Of a stretch of DNA of 64,000 bases, positions 5,672 through 42,429 are shown in pieces; positions within the stretch are counted from its first letter, which is position 1; every line of letters begins with the position of its first letter. The notes under the pieces are model-generated. The model ran no database searches. It worked only from the letters and a program-made list of their open reading frames with translations, and was not told the origin of the DNA. The position numbers and the translations under genes were made by a program. The stretch is from Methanimicrococcus blatticola. GTDB lineage: Archaea; Halobacteriota; Methanosarcinia; Methanosarcinales; Methanosarcinaceae. Location: positions 124,001 to 188,000 of the forward strand of contig NZ_SNYS01000010.1 in NCBI RefSeq assembly GCF_004363215.1, in the 5' to 3' direction.

Positions 5672-6733
5672 GTGTCAAAATTCGATCCCGTTTTTATGGC
5701 GAAAAGCGCTTGGCAAATGAAAATTCGCCGCCGTCCTGTGACAATTTCTCATACCGTCAACTCCGGTTGTAATTTAAGATGTGTTTTTTGCGATGAATGG
5801 AAAAAGAGTTTGAAAACGGATGATGAATCTGTTTCCCGAAGAGAGCCTTCTTTTGAAGAAGTTTGTAAAATTATTGATTTGGCCGTTGACTTCGGTATCG
5901 GCTCTTATAATGCTTGGTCGACCGAGCCTTTTTTGAGAAAAGATTTGCCGGATATTATGAAATATGCCAAATCGAAAGGGATGAAGACATTTACGATTAC
6001 AAACGGTCTGCTGCTCAAAAAAAGAATGCATGAGCTCAAAGATGTGGATTATATTTCTGTTTCTGTTGACGGGCCGACAGCAACGCGTGAAATTCGCGGT
6101 GCCGATTATGAAATGATTTTAGACGGCATCCGGTATGCGTCACAAAGCGGTTTGCTGAATGAACCTCTCTTAATGAACTGTGTCATCAGCCGCAAAAATT
6201 TAGACGAAGTCGAAGATTTGCTCCGGTTTGCTAAAGATCTCGGGAATGTTAAAATGGCGGTTGAGCCGCTTTATGTTTTTCAGCGAATGGGCGATACGGA
6301 TTGGGATGATTTATCAATCGGCGAAGCACAGCAGGAAAAATTTGTTTCTTTGATGAACACGCTCATCGATATGAAAAAGAAAGGGTATCCGCTGATTAAT
6401 TCCAAAACTTATTTAAAACAAATCCGTGACGGTAAAAATATTAAAAATTGCCGGGTTGATCGCGGTATTTTAGCGGTGGATCATCACAGCAACATGTACA
6501 ATTGCCGCATTCACAACAAACCGCTCGGAAACGTGATTGAAGAGTCTGTCTTTGATAATGAAAATGACGAAAAAATTGTACAAAACGGAATCACAAAAGT
6601 TTGGAATCAAACGAAAAAAGAAAGAAAAGAAATGATTCAAAATTGTGAAGGCTGCCGTTTTTTCGGATACGCCGAATTAACGCTGATGAACAATTACAAT
6701 ATTGAATCTTTTTACGGCTACGAATGGCTGTAA
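5672..6733 (+). CDS. Radical SAM/SPASM-like protein
   Basis: The 353-aa protein has the radical SAM cluster motif CNLRCVFC (C-X3-C-X2-C) near residue 31. The position of the usual GGEP SAM-amino-group motif reads STEPFL. The C-terminal part carries more cysteines (NCRVD, YNCR and NCEGC), arranged like a shortened SPASM or twitch auxiliary-cluster domain. Such enzymes cleave SAM to start radical chemistry, often on peptides or cofactors. The substrate cannot be told from sequence, and no precursor-peptide gene is seen next to it. The start is GTG at 5672; the gene stands alone between the stalk operon and a gene on the opposite strand. Confidence 0.85.
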   Translation: MSKFDPVFMAKSAWQMKIRRRPVTISHTVNSGCNLRCVFCDEWKKSLKTDDESVSRREPSFEEVCKIIDLAVDFGIGSYNAWSTEPFLRKDLPDIMKYAKSKGMKTFTITNGLLLKKRMHELKDVDYISVSVDGPTATREIRGADYEMILDGIRYASQSGLLNEPLLMNCVISRKNLDEVEDLLRFAKDLGNVKMAVEPLYVFQRMGDTDWDDLSIGEAQQEKFVSLMNTLIDMKKKGYPLINSKTYLKQIRDGKNIKNCRVDRGILAVDHHSNMYNCRIHNKPLGNVIEESVFDNENDEKIVQNGITKVWNQTKKERKEMIQNCEGCRFFGYAELTLMNNYNIESFYGYEWL

Positions 6734-7725: not shown

Positions 7726-8247
7726 ATGGTTAGAAAGCCGGCAAGTATGTACAGAAACATCAGACAGCGCTCCTTCACCAGAAGAAAATATATGGGCGGT
7801 GTTCCGGGTGTTCAGATTATCCACTACGACATGGGTAACTTAACAAGACAAGACTACCCTGTCAAATTATCATTGCTCGTTGAAGAAAAATGTGCGATCA
7901 GACACACAGCTCTTGAAGCTGCCCGTATTACCGCCAACAGACACATGGTCAACAAGGCAGGCAGAGGCAACTTCCACATCAAGTTGCGCGTCTATCCCCA
8001 CGAAGTTCTCAGAGAAAACAAGCAGGCCACCGGCGCCGGTGCTGACCGTGTTTCCAGTGGTATGAGAGCAGCTTTCGGTAAGAACGTCGGAACCGCAGCA
8101 CGTGTTGTGCCGCTCCAGAAAATCTTTACCATTTCCTGCGACAAGGAATATTTCCTCGCAGCAAAGAAAGCACTCCAAAACGCAGGACAGAAACTTCCGA
8201 CACCCACCAGAATTATCATTGACCAGGGTGCCGATTTGGTTTTGTAA
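7726..8247 (+). CDS. rpl10e: 50S ribosomal protein L10e (uL16)
   Basis: L10e is the archaeal counterpart of bacterial L16 and lies near the tRNA elbow in the central protuberance. The 173-aa sequence begins [12 protein letters not shown] and contains the conserved GGVPGVQI and basic RNA-binding segments ([17 protein letters not shown]). Length and motifs are normal. An ATCGGAG-like sequence lies before the ATG. It is transcribed alone from the promoter at 7474 and ends in the terminator at 8278. Confidence 0.97.
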
Positions 8248-8467: not shown

Positions 8468-9076
8468 ATGGACGATTATGAAAAACTTTTAAACAGGGCG
8501 ATTGAACAGCTCCCTGAAGAAGAGACGACGGATGAGCGTTTCACTGTTCCCGAAGCAAAACTCTTCTCGGAAGGTAAAACAACCGTTTTAGATAATTTCT
8601 CAAATATTGTCGGTGTTCTCAGAAGAGACCCTGACCACGTTATGAAATATCTCACGCGCGAACTGGGTACCGCCGGCAAAATTGAAGGCGGTCGCGCTGT
8701 TTTTCAGGGACGCTTTACAAGAGATCAAATGGATGCCAACATTCAGAATTATGTTGACGAATACGTCATGTGTTCCGAATGCAACCGTCCGGATACAACG
8801 CTCGGCAAGCGCGAACGTGTTTTGATTTTACAGTGTGCTGCCTGCGGTGCGCACCGCCCTGTCAAGAAAAGACAGACAACGACAACCAAAGCCGTTGCCA
8901 CACTCGAAGAAGGCAACACTTATGAAATCAACATCGAAGCGGTCGGCTCAAAAGGCGACGGCATTGCCAAGTTTGATAAATTCACGATTTTCGTTCCGGG
9001 CGGCGTTAAAGGCCAAACTTTGAACGTTAAAATTAAGAAAATTTCCGGTTATTTGGCTTTTGCCGAAAAAGTCTGA
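8468..9076 (+). CDS. aif2b: Translation initiation factor aIF2 subunit beta with C-terminal TRAM domain
   Basis: aIF2 delivers initiator tRNA to the small subunit. The 202-aa product has an N-terminal helix, the alpha-beta core (about residues 35-95) and a C2C2 zinc finger (CSEC at about 100, CAAC at about 120). A TRAM RNA-binding domain (about 143-202) with [16 protein letters not shown] follows. The beta-TRAM fusion is known from Methanosarcina relatives, while most other archaea have only the first two domains. AGAGGGAAAATT precedes the ATG. The cysteine-free radical SAM-like gene follows 64 bases on, past a terminator. Confidence 0.96.
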
Positions 9077-9084
9077 TTTCCTAT

Positions 9085-9105
9085 AGCCGTTTATTATAAA
9101 CGGCT
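9085..9105 (+). terminator. Intrinsic terminator of aif2b
   Basis: AGCCGTTTA (9085-9093) pairs with TAAACGGCT (9097-9105) with a 3-base loop, and is followed by a T-rich tract. The TTATT run after it also lies just ahead of the next start codon. Confidence 0.85.
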
Positions 9106-9140: not shown

Positions 9141-10343
9141 ATGCAGCAGCCTGTCAATGTTTTTAAAATGCCCGGCCTTTCCGTGAATGCGGTTCGGACC
9201 GATGAAGGCAAAATCAATCTTTCTGCCGGCGGTTTTTTAAAATTCGCGGCGCGTCCTTTTTTATCGGTTGCCAACAAGCATCTGAAAGATGAAAAGCCGG
9301 CCCTTGTCACAGAATCTGCCGTCTATCCGTCCTCCTGGCTTCCGCCGATTCCGAGCCCTGTTTTCAAACGTCTCGTGAAAGATGAAATCGGTATCGGCTT
9401 TGGAAAATATGTTCCTGAAACGGTTTCAATCGAAGTGACGCGTAAATTCAATGCAAACGCTGAAAGGTATGCCAAAAAAAATCGCACGGCAAATGTTAAT
9501 TTTGATAATCCGCATTTTTCAGTCGACCCGTCCGCACCGCTCATTGAAAAAGCGATTGATGAGGCTTTGGGTATGGGTGCCGTTGTCATTACGTTCACGG
9601 AAGGTGACCCGCTGCTGAATGAAAATATTGTTGATTATGTTCGTTATGTTGATAAATCAAAAGCAGTTGTCATGGCTTATACATGGGGGCTGGATTTTGA
9701 TTTGGAAAAAGCGAAGCAACTCAAAGAAGCCGGTCTTCAGACGCTTTTGGTCAGCATTTATTCAACCGATCCGTCTGTTCATGATCAAAAACGCGGTATT
9801 TCAGGCGCGTATGATAAAGCGGTTGCTGCCATTCAATTCGGCCTGGAAGCCGGACTCATGGTGACGATGGCAACGCATTTGGATGGCGCGAAAGTCGGTG
9901 AGATGGAAGGCTTATGGAAATTAGCAGGCGATCTCGGCGTTCATGAGTTTTCGATTTGGGAATCTGTTCCAACGCTTGAAGGCGAACGCAGGATGAGTGA
10001 TGCCGAACGCAAAGTCATTAATGATTTTTACCGCAAAGTCAATGCGGTTGATGACGGTACGCCGCGTATTTTCTCTAACACGATTTTCGAAGGAGAAATG
10101 TTTGGCGCAATGGCAGGACGCCGTTGGTTGCATGTAACGACGGAAGGGGAAATGCAGCCCGACCCGTATATTCCGTTTTCTTACGGCAATCTGGATGAGG
10201 TGTCAATGAAAACCGCATGGAAGCGGATGCGCAAAGAATCTGCGCTTCGGGAAAAACGCGGGATGCATGTGCTTTATGACCCGATTTATCTTCAAAAGGT
10301 TCGGGAAGCCAACGGGTGGGATTTCAGAACACCGAAAGAATAA
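9141..10343 (+). CDS. Radical SAM-fold protein without any cysteine (probable pseudoenzyme)
   Basis: The 400-aa protein follows the radical SAM barrel closely: VSIEVTRK before the cluster loop, then FTEGDPLL at the place of the GGEP motif, VSIYSTDPSVHDQKRG, GAYDKAVAAI and a C-terminal PYIPFSYGNL segment. The cluster loop reads FNANAERY, so the three ligands of C-X3-C-X2-C are Phe, Ala and Tyr, and the C-terminal position often held by Cys in this layout (QPDPYIPF) is Asp. There is no cysteine anywhere in the protein, so it cannot bind a 4Fe-4S cluster through cysteine. The reading frame is full length and well kept, so it is not a decayed gene. Function unknown: a regulatory or structural role, or SAM binding without the cluster, would fit. 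Confidence 0.85.
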   Translation: MQQPVNVFKMPGLSVNAVRTDEGKINLSAGGFLKFAARPFLSVANKHLKDEKPALVTESAVYPSSWLPPIPSPVFKRLVKDEIGIGFGKYVPETVSIEVTRKFNANAERYAKKNRTANVNFDNPHFSVDPSAPLIEKAIDEALGMGAVVITFTEGDPLLNENIVDYVRYVDKSKAVVMAYTWGLDFDLEKAKQLKEAGLQTLLVSIYSTDPSVHDQKRGISGAYDKAVAAIQFGLEAGLMVTMATHLDGAKVGEMEGLWKLAGDLGVHEFSIWESVPTLEGERRMSDAERKVINDFYRKVNAVDDGTPRIFSNTIFEGEMFGAMAGRRWLHVTTEGEMQPDPYIPFSYGNLDEVSMKTAWKRMRKESALREKRGMHVLYDPIYLQKVREANGWDFRTPKE

Positions 10344-10427: not shown

Positions 10428-10730
10428 ATGGCAAAAAAAGACGATATGGAAGAAATCATCGCTGATATTGACGATGATGACACACCGACCGCATATACGG
10501 AAATTAAAATGGGCGGCGGCTGGTATATGGCGATTTCTTTGGAAAGAAGCGAACGCTTTGACAAGGAATATGTTGAAATTTCAAAAGAGCGCGCCGGTAA
10601 AAAAAGAGCCCGCTTCAACTTAAGCCCCAAACACACCCGCGTTTTGGGCGAAGCGCTCATCAGATTCGCCGACGAAAATGATTTGGATAATTTTGTCAGC
10701 AAAAGCAGCAGTAAAGAAGATGACGAATAA
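10428..10730 (+). CDS. Small acidic-tailed protein, possibly PC4-like nucleic-acid binding
   Basis: This 100-aa protein has an acidic N-terminus (DIDDDD) and a compact middle segment. That segment includes GGGWYMAISLERSERFDKE, followed by a Lys/Arg patch (GKKRARFNLSP) and an amphipathic helix. The tail is Ser/Lys/Asp rich. The order of strands then helix with basic residues recalls the PC4 family of single-stranded DNA-binding coactivators, but I rate that resemblance weak. AGGAGA precedes the ATG. It lies 84 bases after the cysteine-free radical SAM-like gene and 14 bases before a DUF3784 membrane gene, so the two small genes are probably one transcript. Confidence 0.7.
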   Translation: MAKKDDMEEIIADIDDDDTPTAYTEIKMGGGWYMAISLERSERFDKEYVEISKERAGKKRARFNLSPKHTRVLGEALIRFADENDLDNFVSKSSSKEDDE

Positions 10731-38586: not shown

Positions 38587-41500
38587 ATGAAAAATATATT
38601 AAAATACGCGGTCGTTTTGCTCATCCTGTTTGCGATGATCGGGACGGCGAGTGCTGATGTAGGTACAGTTACCGCATCCGCCGAAATCCATTCTACAAAT
38701 GATGGAAATTATAATGTTACTGTATCATGGACTGGTACAGGCAGTGCCCCCTATACTGTTACTATTGAAGGGACAGCCATTCCTGCAAATGATACAGGTG
38801 TGGATTCTGCTACTTTTAACGATGTTACATTAACTCCTGGAAATACTTACACTGTTAATGTTACAGATAGTGCCAGTACGTTTGAAATAACAACTTTTGC
38901 TGCTCCTATACCTCCTACTCCGTTGAGTCCGCCGGTTATGGACAATTTTGAATCCACTACAACAGCAGGATCTAATCTCTACAGTTTAACATGGGATTGG
39001 GTTACATATCCTGCAGGAACTATTTTACTCTATAACAATTCCGGTACATGGGTTACTGTGACTGTTGTTCCTTTTGAAGTTTCAGGAAGTCCTGCTTCTG
39101 ACCAAAAATTTGAGTTTAAATTAAATGATTCCACCGTTGATAGTACAACTACTTCTTTTGAATTTAAAAAAATCGGCTTTGATAATGCAACCACCGAAAG
39201 TAAAATTACGTGGACTTTGGATACTTCTGGTTGGGATTCTTTTGAATATAATGTGACTAAAGGTGACGGTTCTGAAATTGTTCCGATCACTACAAGCAGT
39301 TCTGCTACAATCGTTACACCTGATACACTTGAGGCTGCAACTTCTTACACAATCAATGTTCGTGGAATTAATGGATATGGATATGGATTGTGGACATCGA
39401 ACTCTACTACAACAGGAACAGCAACAGTTGATTTTGTTGATAATTTTGAATCCAGTAAAGAAATTTTCAATGACGATAACAGTTCAAACGGAACTAAAGA
39501 TTTCACTGCTGAGGCCGGAGTCACTTTCTATATCAACATGACTGCAACCAAAGAAGTCGATTTCACATGGAAACTTGAAGTTTACGATGAAGATGCAACT
39601 ACTTGGGGTCCTGTTCCTTCAACTGTAAAATACAATGTTGAAAATGATGCTGCCAACAACTCAAGCAACTTTTCATGGAAGCCGAATGAAAAAGGTAAAT
39701 ACAGATTAAATTTGACAATGACTGATACTTCCACGACTCCTGATACGGTGCAGGAATTATCTTGGGTTGTCACTGTCACACCCAGCACAACAGGCGACCG
39801 TATTTGGGACGAGTCTCTCGGTATGCCCAAAGACAAATACACATGGACCGCCCGCAGTTTCTCCGGGTTCTATTATGATTTGGACACCGGCGAAGGCAGC
39901 GAATATATGACGATTTCTAATATCGGCCGTACTATTTCCAAAGGCGACATCTATTATGAAACAACAACATCAGATGTTGATTTCGAATATGACGGCTGGG
40001 GATCTTACCAGATTGTCGGTTTCATGGGCGACAAATATTATGCCGGTTCCGGTTCTGACAGCTTGATGAAGAACGGCAATTTGTCCAAGGTTTTACTTGA
40101 TGTTGATGACAGTGAAAATTACCGTGTCGGTCAATACCTTGCTCTCGAAGAAGGGTATTCCATCAGAATCGATCAGATTGACGTTAACGGAAACGCTGCT
40201 TTGCTTGTTGTCGAAAAAGACGGTAAGGAAGTGGACAGCGGTATTGTCAATATCAACAACAACGCAACATTCACCTATGAGAAAAACATCAGCGGTACCA
40301 AAGTTCCGTTTATCATGATTCACGTCAAAAGCGTTTTCATGGGTACAGAAAGCAGTCTCGTGACAATTGACGGTATCTTCCAAATTTCTGACAAATTGCT
40401 TAAACTCGAAAGCGGAACAGAAATTGACAAAATGGAAATCGACAGTGTCAGCGGTAATACCATTACGATGTCCAACAGTGAAAAAGTCAGTTTGAGCAGT
40501 GACTCTGAAGTCACTTTAATGGGCAAATTGAAATTCATTGTCGCCGACAGTGATACTTTAAGATTCGCTCCGACAATCGAATACACCGATCCGGGTATTT
40601 ACGAAATCAGAGGAACGGTTTCTGACTTCAGCAACAATGAATATATTGTTGACTTGTGGACACCGCAGAACTTCGAAGGATTCTATTATGATATCAATGA
40701 CGATATCGAAAACTCTGAAAGCATTAAAATCGATACCGATTTAAGCTCAACACGCAAAATCGCAAACGGTGAATTAACATACACCGCAAACACAACAATC
40801 GCTGACTATGAATATGAAACATGGGGTCAATACACCGTTATCGGTTTCATGGGTGAAAAATACTATGCAGGAACCGGCGGCGGTCTCTTAAGCAACGGCA
40901 ACTTGTCCAAAGTCTTAGTCGATACCGATGAAAAGAGAAACATGTATGTCAACCAATCCGTCTCTCTTGAAGAAGGTGTTTCCGTCAGAGCCAGTCAGAT
41001 TGACGTAAACGGTAACCGCGCTTTATTGGTCGTTGAAAAAGACGGCAAAGAACTCTATTCCGAAATCGTTCAATCCGGAAACGACTTGAACTACTCAAAG
41101 AAAATCGGTTCCGGCAGTGAAAACACAACTTTCGTTAAAGTTCACGTCGATGCCGTTTTCATGGGTACTGAAAGCAGTCTCGTGACAATTTCCGGTATTT
41201 TCCAGGCTTCGACTGAATTAACAAAGATTGAAGAAGGAACAACATACGGTAAAATGGAAGTGACCAGTGTCAGCTCCACCGGTATCATTCTTGAAAACGA
41301 CGGATCACTCTCCTTGTCTGACGGTGATGATGTTGAATTCATGAAAGTCGGCAACAGCACAATGTATTTCAAAGTCGGTGACAGCGATGACAGCACTTTG
41401 AGATTCGCACCGGTCGTCGAAAAAGAAATCGGCTCCACCGATCCGTTGAATGTTAAATTGTCCAACTCCACAGTGACTTCAAGCGATGTCGTTACAATCA

Positions 41501-42429
41501 CGGTCGAAGATCGCGGTGTCACAATTGAAGGCGTTACGGTTACAGTCAACGGCTCAACTGTCGGTACAACCAACTCTTCCGGCCAGGTTAACTACACAAC
41601 CAATGCGGTCGGAACATTCAGAGTCAATGCTGAAAAATCCGGTTACACAGCAGGCAATGCCAGTTTGACCGTAAACGAAAAACTCATCAACATGACTGTC
41701 CGCGTCTCCCCTGAAACCGTTTACTTCGGAACGGCCGGCACAATCAAAGCCACAGATTCTTTGAACGGGTCTGCCATCAGTGACGCAACGGTTTACATCA
41801 GCGGTGAAAGCATCGGTAAAACGAATTCTTCAGGCGAACTGAATTATACGTTTAACAAAACCGGATCCGTGACAATTGATGTTGCCAAAGAGAAATACAA
41901 CAACGGAACAACCACTGTCAATGTTTCTCAGGAAGTTGCTTTCGCGTATTCCAATTTCGCATTGAAGCCGGATGAACCGTCTGCCAAAAAGGCCATCAAA
42001 CTTTCATTTGATGTGACCAACAACGGTATCAAAGACGGCTCACATGACGTTTCTTTGATCTTGAGAGACGGCAGCGGAAATGTGGTTGATCAGGACAACA
42101 AGACGGTTTCTGCCAACATGGGCAAATCCAAGAGTGTTTCCTTGTCTGTTAAAGCACCGGAAGAAGGCACTTACACATTGACATTGGTCGAATCAGACAG
42201 CAACAGAACAATCGACTTACCCTCAAGCATGTCTAAAGTTTCAGTCGGTTCCGCTAAACTCGGATCAACCATCCTGTACATCATCTTAGCCTTTCTTGCA
42301 ATCATTGTCATTGCAGTTATCGGATTTGTGGCATACCTTTTCGGTGTGAAAGGCGCAAACAGAGACAATTATAAGATGGTGGCAAGCGAAGTTGTCGATG
42401 ACATCAAATACAAATTCCAAAGAAAATAA
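38587..42429 (+). CDS. Large S-layer-related surface protein with two tandem S-layer domains
   Basis: The 1280-aa protein has a signal peptide (residues 1-24, ending GTASAD), then about 370 residues of Thr/Ser-rich Fn3-like beta modules. Two copies of the Methanosarcina-type S-layer domain (DUF1608) follow, near residues 410-680 and 685-950. Both have FSGFYYD or FEGFYYD, ALLVVEKDGKE, VFMGTESSLVTI and LRFAP. Next come two Big/peptidase-regulatory-like Ig modules (about 955-1110), a CARDB-like module, one membrane span (about 1226-1250) and a short basic cytoplasmic tail. It is much longer than the two-domain S-layer protein known in the group, so it may be an accessory or a main lattice protein. 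It has its own terminator. Confidence 0.9.
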   Translation: MKNILKYAVVLLILFAMIGTASADVGTVTASAEIHSTNDGNYNVTVSWTGTGSAPYTVTIEGTAIPANDTGVDSATFNDVTLTPGNTYTVNVTDSASTFEITTFAAPIPPTPLSPPVMDNFESTTTAGSNLYSLTWDWVTYPAGTILLYNNSGTWVTVTVVPFEVSGSPASDQKFEFKLNDSTVDSTTTSFEFKKIGFDNATTESKITWTLDTSGWDSFEYNVTKGDGSEIVPITTSSSATIVTPDTLEAATSYTINVRGINGYGYGLWTSNSTTTGTATVDFVDNFESSKEIFNDDNSSNGTKDFTAEAGVTFYINMTATKEVDFTWKLEVYDEDATTWGPVPSTVKYNVENDAANNSSNFSWKPNEKGKYRLNLTMTDTSTTPDTVQELSWVVTVTPSTTGDRIWDESLGMPKDKYTWTARSFSGFYYDLDTGEGSEYMTISNIGRTISKGDIYYETTTSDVDFEYDGWGSYQIVGFMGDKYYAGSGSDSLMKNGNLSKVLLDVDDSENYRVGQYLALEEGYSIRIDQIDVNGNAALLVVEKDGKEVDSGIVNINNNATFTYEKNISGTKVPFIMIHVKSVFMGTESSLVTIDGIFQISDKLLKLESGTEIDKMEIDSVSGNTITMSNSEKVSLSSDSEVTLMGKLKFIVADSDTLRFAPTIEYTDPGIYEIRGTVSDFSNNEYIVDLWTPQNFEGFYYDINDDIENSESIKIDTDLSSTRKIANGELTYTANTTIADYEYETWGQYTVIGFMGEKYYAGTGGGLLSNGNLSKVLVDTDEKRNMYVNQSVSLEEGVSVRASQIDVNGNRALLVVEKDGKELYSEIVQSGNDLNYSKKIGSGSENTTFVKVHVDAVFMGTESSLVTISGIFQASTELTKIEEGTTYGKMEVTSVSSTGIILENDGSLSLSDGDDVEFMKVGNSTMYFKVGDSDDSTLRFAPVVEKEIGSTDPLNVKLSNSTVTSSDVVTITVEDRGVTIEGVTVTVNGSTVGTTNSSGQVNYTTNAVGTFRVNAEKSGYTAGNASLTVNEKLINMTVRVSPETVYFGTAGTIKATDSLNGSAISDATVYISGESIGKTNSSGELNYTFNKTGSVTIDVAKEKYNNGTTTVNVSQEVAFAYSNFALKPDEPSAKKAIKLSFDVTNNGIKDGSHDVSLILRDGSGNVVDQDNKTVSANMGKSKSVSLSVKAPEEGTYTLTLVESDSNRTIDLPSSMSKVSVGSAKLGSTILYIILAFLAIIVIAVIGFVAYLFGVKGANRDNYKMVASEVVDDIKYKFQRK

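Follow-up and report, generated by a model that had tools for sequence, protein, structure and literature searches.

A predicted pseudoenzyme-like family with a radical SAM fold and no cluster cysteines in Methanimicrococcus and Methanosarcina

Introduction

The best barrel profile matches of the protein described here (gene A), and of its two paralogs (B and C), are to radical SAM/SPASM proteins of the AhbD/AhbC/NirJ type (TIGR04545, TIGR04546 and TIGR04055), which are likewise archaeal and share a Twitch/SPASM-like C-terminus. Gene A differs from these proteins in an extra N-terminal domain of about 90 residues and in the absence of cluster cysteines, and scores only 46-88 bits against profiles whose cut-offs are 500-650; the value for the heme b synthase AhbD (TIGR04545) is 87.5 bits, against a cut-off of 500. 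A precedent for a radical SAM fold that works without a cluster is TIGR04347, named as an archaeal pseudo-SAM/SPASM family, although the likeness is one of name and profile score (58.4 bits, far below the cut-off of 525) and that family, unlike A, is named for haloarchaea. By sequence profile and fold, the nearest structures are BlsE (7VOB/7VOC), SkfB (6EFN), PqqE (6C8V) and MoaA (1TV7), with 14-18% identity in fold alignments. All four are catalytic and contain Fe-S clusters, whereas A lacks the cluster ligands. Few accounts exist of radical SAM proteins that lack a cluster altogether, and we found no paper on one in the literature searched; here, such a protein has become fixed throughout a genus amenable to genetics.

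Methanophenazine is the membrane electron carrier of these methanogens. The geranylfarnesyl diphosphate synthase Mmah_1452, a homolog of MM_0789, is a methanophenazine enzyme (PMC3017947), and several papers describe the rest of the biosynthetic pathway as unknown. In Methanimicrococcus, methanophenazine is the sole route of energy conservation (PMC11362671), and Methanoperedens uses menaquinone, without methanophenazine (PMC5244752). In the literature searched, with subscription papers outside its scope, neither gene A nor any radical SAM protein tied to methanophenazine synthesis was reported.

Results

An intact radical SAM-fold gene without cysteine

We analysed a stretch of 64,000 nucleotides, hereafter the window, in which the following features surround gene A:

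5672..6733, + strand: intact radical SAM gene, PTO1314-like, not part of the A/B/C system (profile, neighbourhood comparison)
7726..8247, + strand: gene for ribosomal protein L16 (uL16), in the conserved order L16 - aIF2-beta - A (profile, synteny)
8468..9076, + strand: aIF2-beta/TRAM gene, the syntenic upstream neighbour that marks orthology (profile, synteny)
9085..9105, + strand: hairpin with a downstream T run, in the aIF2-beta/A intergenic region (fold, -10.6 kcal/mol)
9141..10343, + strand: gene A (P0001), radical SAM-fold protein of 400 residues without cysteine (frame, Pfam, orthologs, AlphaFold model)

P0001 is a single intact open frame under table 11, with an ATG start and 400 codons, none of them for cysteine. 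It matches the Pfam Radical_SAM profile PF04055 at 39.7 bits, above the cut-off of 29.5 and as befits a radical SAM fold, with an alignment that begins at residue 132, past the cluster loop. Structure modelling, which the earlier note had proposed, returned a confident radical SAM barrel (AlphaFold2, 47-sequence alignment; mean pLDDT 90.7, pTM 0.91), in which residues 111-130, just past the loop, are the sole poorly predicted inner part (pLDDT < 60). The nearest solved structures to this model in Foldseek were SkfB, BlsE, PqqE, SuiB, MoaA and viperin, and an ortholog from Methanolobus that carries the cysteines (hereafter Cys+), modelled likewise, gave a fold and structure matches of the same kind. 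The frame, the Pfam match and the model thus bear out the earlier note, which had described a full-length radical SAM-fold protein without any cysteine and without a frameshift. Recoding or a frameshift at gene A was rejected, given the open frame and orthologs that are alike.

We do not regard the lack of cysteine as a rare event in itself: cysteine accounts for 0.85% of the residues in window ORFs, its absence from 400 residues has a chance probability of P ~0.03, and six further window ORFs of at least 180 residues also lack it. What is beyond chance is that all ligand columns are lost together in every ortholog of two clades.

The hairpin at 9085..9105 looks like a terminator, and because it separates the aIF2-beta gene from A, the latter may have its own promoter. 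Directly downstream of A, positions 10428-10730 (+ strand) encode a small acidic protein of 100 residues (MAKKDDMEEIIAD...), which is conserved in the same place in the Methanimicrococcus loci L035-L039. Elsewhere in the window, positions 38587-42426 hold an open frame of 1280 residues that is also free of cysteine.

Loss of both ligand sets and changes in the pocket

The positions compared with Cys+ orthologs were as follows:

9447..9470, + strand: degraded counterpart of the radical SAM cluster loop, FNANAERY at residues 103-110 (comparison with Cys+ orthologs)
9597..9611, + strand: TEGDP, counterpart of the GGE motif past strand 2, identical in Cys+ orthologs (alignment)
9681..9698, + strand: TWGLDF past strand 3, with W182 and D185 (alignment)
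10107..10268, + strand: remnant Twitch/SPASM-like auxiliary cluster region, ligand columns A323/T333/D341/H376 (comparison with Cys+ orthologs)

Cysteine occupies columns 103, 105, 107 and 110 in 100% of the Cys+ orthologs (n=49), usually as the loop C-K-C-N-C-E-H-C, with C103, C107 and C110 as the CX3CX2C ligands and C105 as an extra cysteine. The corresponding stretch of P0001 reads R-K-F103-N-A105-N-A107-E-R-Y110, without the CX3CX2C motif of radical SAM enzymes. The C-terminal cysteines of SPASM/Twitch proteins are missing as well: the auxiliary columns of the same Cys+ orthologs (C323 in 100%, C333 in 92%, C341 in 96% and C376 in 100%) are A323, T333, D341 and H376 in P0001. The loop had been read as FNANAERY in the earlier note, with an Asp at a SPASM-like cysteine position, and both readings agree with the columns (F103, A105, A107, Y110; D341), the whole auxiliary set being lost besides. 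Because the cluster ligands are missing, the standard radical mechanism is excluded for A, there being no SAM-ligating cluster from which a deoxyadenosyl radical could arise by known chemistry.

The loss of cysteine is specific to the ligands, since 18 of 24 Methanosarcina-type sequences still have a non-ligand cysteine at column 37. We therefore rejected a genome-wide poverty in cysteine as its cause, both on account of column 37 in Methanosarcina and because B and C retain theirs. It is very improbable that A is still an Fe-S or metal protein by way of other ligands (Asp341, His376, Tyr, Asn); D341 and H376 are found in 8/8 sequences of the Methanimicrococcus clade, but the Methanosarcina clade has Ser/Gly and mostly Ser/Ala/Thr at these positions, which are poor ligands.

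Other residues have changed in a uniform manner. Every Cys-less row (45/45) has Trp at position 182 and Asp at position 185, where Cys+ rows have Pro (64/65) and Glu (57/65), respectively. Radical SAM enzymes have active-site residues after barrel strand 3, and since site 182 follows this strand, W182 may reasonably be thought, from the alignment and the model, to fill the emptied pocket.

The main alternative to a partner or scaffold role for A (see Discussion) is that A remains an enzyme without a cluster, in which the remodelled TWG-x-D pocket would bind SAM or a prenyl or aromatic substrate for non-radical chemistry. The Cys-less proteins retain 76 of the 104 residues that are invariant in Cys+ orthologs, all of them have W182 and D185, and the barrel-motif residues T153, E154, D156, P157, T181, G183, Y207, H214, R218, E269, W273 and E274 are kept, as such an enzyme might require. 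However, the loop is highly variable among the Cys-less proteins, as for a dismantled site, and the retained residues may serve structure or an interface; we consider a cluster-free enzyme unlikely.

Distribution of the cysteines among orthologs

Orthology of A was assigned by position, as L16 - aIF2-beta - A in Methanimicrococcus and as L16 - aIF2-beta - A - trpS - pheS elsewhere in the family, with a KaiC-like gene before A in many genomes and trpS - pheS downstream of A only outside the gut clade. We identified Cys-less orthologs in all 6 Methanimicrococcus genomes, in two that are Methanofrustulum-like, and in all Methanosarcina and close kin sampled; in both Cys-less clades, the CX3CX2C set and the four C-terminal cysteines are missing together. 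The CX3CX2C motif is kept in the orthologs from Methanolobus, Methanococcoides, Methanomethylovorans, Methanohalophilus, Methanosalsum, ANME-2 and Methanothrix, in which the C-terminal set is mostly or wholly kept, and the loops of loci L104 and L111 carry cysteine. Sister genera carry Cys+ orthologs in the equivalent position, which makes this locus a clean natural experiment in the passage from a radical enzyme to a pseudoenzyme.

Two findings had been named in the earlier note as jointly contrary to its reading, of which one was observed, namely that other genera keep the cysteines, and the other was not, as no A ortholog of Methanimicrococcus has internal stops. Gene A is of full length even in reduced genomes of 1.3-1.8 Mb.

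A gene for a KaiC/RAD55-like ATPase adjoins A in 20 Cys+ loci (e.g. L042, L060 and L092) and in 0 Cys-less loci; its loss may have accompanied that of the clusters of A.

A probable single loss followed by selection

The loss of all cluster-binding cysteines was probably a single event, in the lineage ancestral to Methanosarcina, Methanimicrococcus and Methanofrustulum. The Cys-less proteins share the derived residues P182W, E185D and M186F, which argues for one origin. In a concatenated tree of B and C, used as a proxy for the species tree, a single branch separates the genera with a Cys-less A from the others (96/98; 94% of bootstrap replicates). The tree of A itself has an unresolved backbone and long branches, and does not reject a single Cys-less clade (AU p 0.469).

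The median dN/dS (NG86) values for gene A, 0.14 (Methanimicrococcus) and 0.10 (Methanosarcina), are about double the 0.05 of the Cys+ gene in Methanolobus, and constraint on the Cys-less gene is thus somewhat relaxed in comparison. The same ratio could be taken to mean that A is slowly losing its function, its role being dispensable and its sequences persisting by inertia. This reading is already disfavoured, and we give it very little weight: close relatives contain no broken copy, the gene remains complete in the reduced genomes, dN/dS is still 0.10-0.14, and new residues have been fixed.

From sequence, gene A has the marks of a pseudoenzyme-like family under strong selection, and not of a decayed gene: the catalytic ligands are lost, the fold and the gene are kept by selection, and homologs of the active type exist. 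The Pfam match, the model, the ligand columns and the dN/dS values accordingly uphold the earlier suggestion that the fold was kept by selection after Fe-S chemistry was lost.

Paralogs B and C

Searches with P0001 and paralog B as queries identified three paralogs, A, B and C, in near-complete genomes of the Methanosarcinaceae; at E <= 1e-40, almost all of the 61 genomes of the family had three, and the few incomplete ones had two. In the genome studied, the other two are:

G000:C6:114252-115445: paralog B, 8.5 kb upstream of the window
G000:C6:29524-30663: paralog C

Both B and C keep the CX3CX2C motif and the first auxiliary cysteine in 20/20 loci each, including genomes with a Cys-less A. 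Paralog B follows genes for archaeosine TGT, UbiA and a geranylgeranyl-reductase-like flavoprotein, and C lies between a polyprenyl synthase gene and the A-type ATPase operon, a neighbourhood that matches the published position of the geranylfarnesyl diphosphate synthase Mmah_1452 of the methanophenazine pathway (PMC3017947). In a Methanothrix-like family (f6), C also adjoins a polyprenyl synthase (G163, G240). In three other families of the phylum (f11, f17 and f21), all three paralogs are Cys+ and lie in one cluster, together with a geranylgeranyl-reductase-like gene and a further radical SAM gene. In the Methanosarcinaceae, A is located among translation genes, away from B and C.

The intact radical SAM gene at 5672-6733, which the earlier note had offered as a partner for A, adjoins only three Methanimicrococcus orthologs of A and was rejected; the co-conserved paralogs B and C are better candidates. 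The earlier interpretation thus stands as to a selected, pseudoenzyme-like barrel without Fe-S chemistry, but not as to its partner.

Exclusion between the A/B/C family and menaquinone synthesis

The A/B/C family is present in families f1, f2, f3 and f6 and absent in f4 and f5, which belong to the same order as f1-f3 and whose 16 genomes contained no close member (best E 2e-15 or weaker). The menaquinone-pathway protein MqnC scored above its cut-off in 14/14 f4/f5 genomes tested, in 0/17 f1-f3 genomes and in 0/4 f6 genomes, and did not reach it in the f11, f15, f17 and f21 genomes that hold the A/B/C family. The two are mutually exclusive in 46 of 47 genomes. The sole exception, G166 (f20), has MqnC and two A/B/C family matches, one of them much like the Methanosarcinaceae B. 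This paralog (G166:C36:7878-8831) is 57% identical to the B of Methanimicrococcus, and could reflect contamination or transfer.

Family f5 presumably corresponds to the Methanoperedenaceae, and the lack of the A/B/C family together with the presence of MqnC in f4/f5 matches the literature on Methanoperedens (PMC5244752). As a strict marker of presence, the geranylfarnesyl diphosphate synthase had to be discarded, good homologs being found also in G120 and G107, both without close family members.

The trio may instead serve membrane lipid or other isoprenoid modification, with A as its cluster-free member. UbiA and reductase genes such as those beside B also serve the synthesis of archaeal ether lipids, which favours this view and counts against a role in methanophenazine synthesis. 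Yet C adjoins a synthase published as specific to methanophenazine, and the trio is missing exactly where menaquinone genes occur in the same order, in archaea that need ether lipids too; a lipid role thus seems to us rather improbable.

Discussion

We tentatively favour the explanation that A, having lost its ligands in one episode, assists B and C in methanophenazine synthesis without a cluster of its own, as a partner, a scaffold or an allosteric subunit. On this view, the ancestral A would have been an ordinary radical SAM/Twitch-type enzyme with two clusters, working as a set with B and C. One episode in the common ancestor of the three Cys-less genera (Methanosarcina, Methanimicrococcus and Methanofrustulum) would have removed the ligands of both clusters, after which the gene was kept; the chemistry of A would have disappeared or passed to B or C, with A staying on as a partner, scaffold or regulator of these proteins. 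A physical interaction between A and B or C, and any retained binding of SAM or substrate, are predictions. The location of A among translation genes in the Methanosarcinaceae and the roughly doubled dN/dS relative to Cys+ Methanolobus speak against this explanation.

The association of A, B and C with methanophenazine is one that we infer from gene neighbours and from the exclusion of menaquinone. Paralogs B and C are, on this genomic evidence, good candidates for the methanophenazine pathway, and as the companions of A provide concrete genes for an open problem in methanogen energy metabolism. A more specific proposal, which we regard as possible but doubtful, assigns to A, B and C the synthesis or attachment of the phenazine head group of methanophenazine, with A having become, in Methanosarcina and the gut lineages, an obligate Fe-S-free subunit of a hetero-oligomeric radical SAM system.

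Most of the f11, f17 and f21 loci (L159-L166) additionally encode an NMT1-like protein and a protein of 308 residues without a Pfam match. We rejected the 308-residue protein and the 293-residue NMT1-like protein as parts of the shared core, as they have no match and only weak matches, respectively, in Methanosarcinia. The cluster of these families is possibly a complete carrier-synthesis locus.
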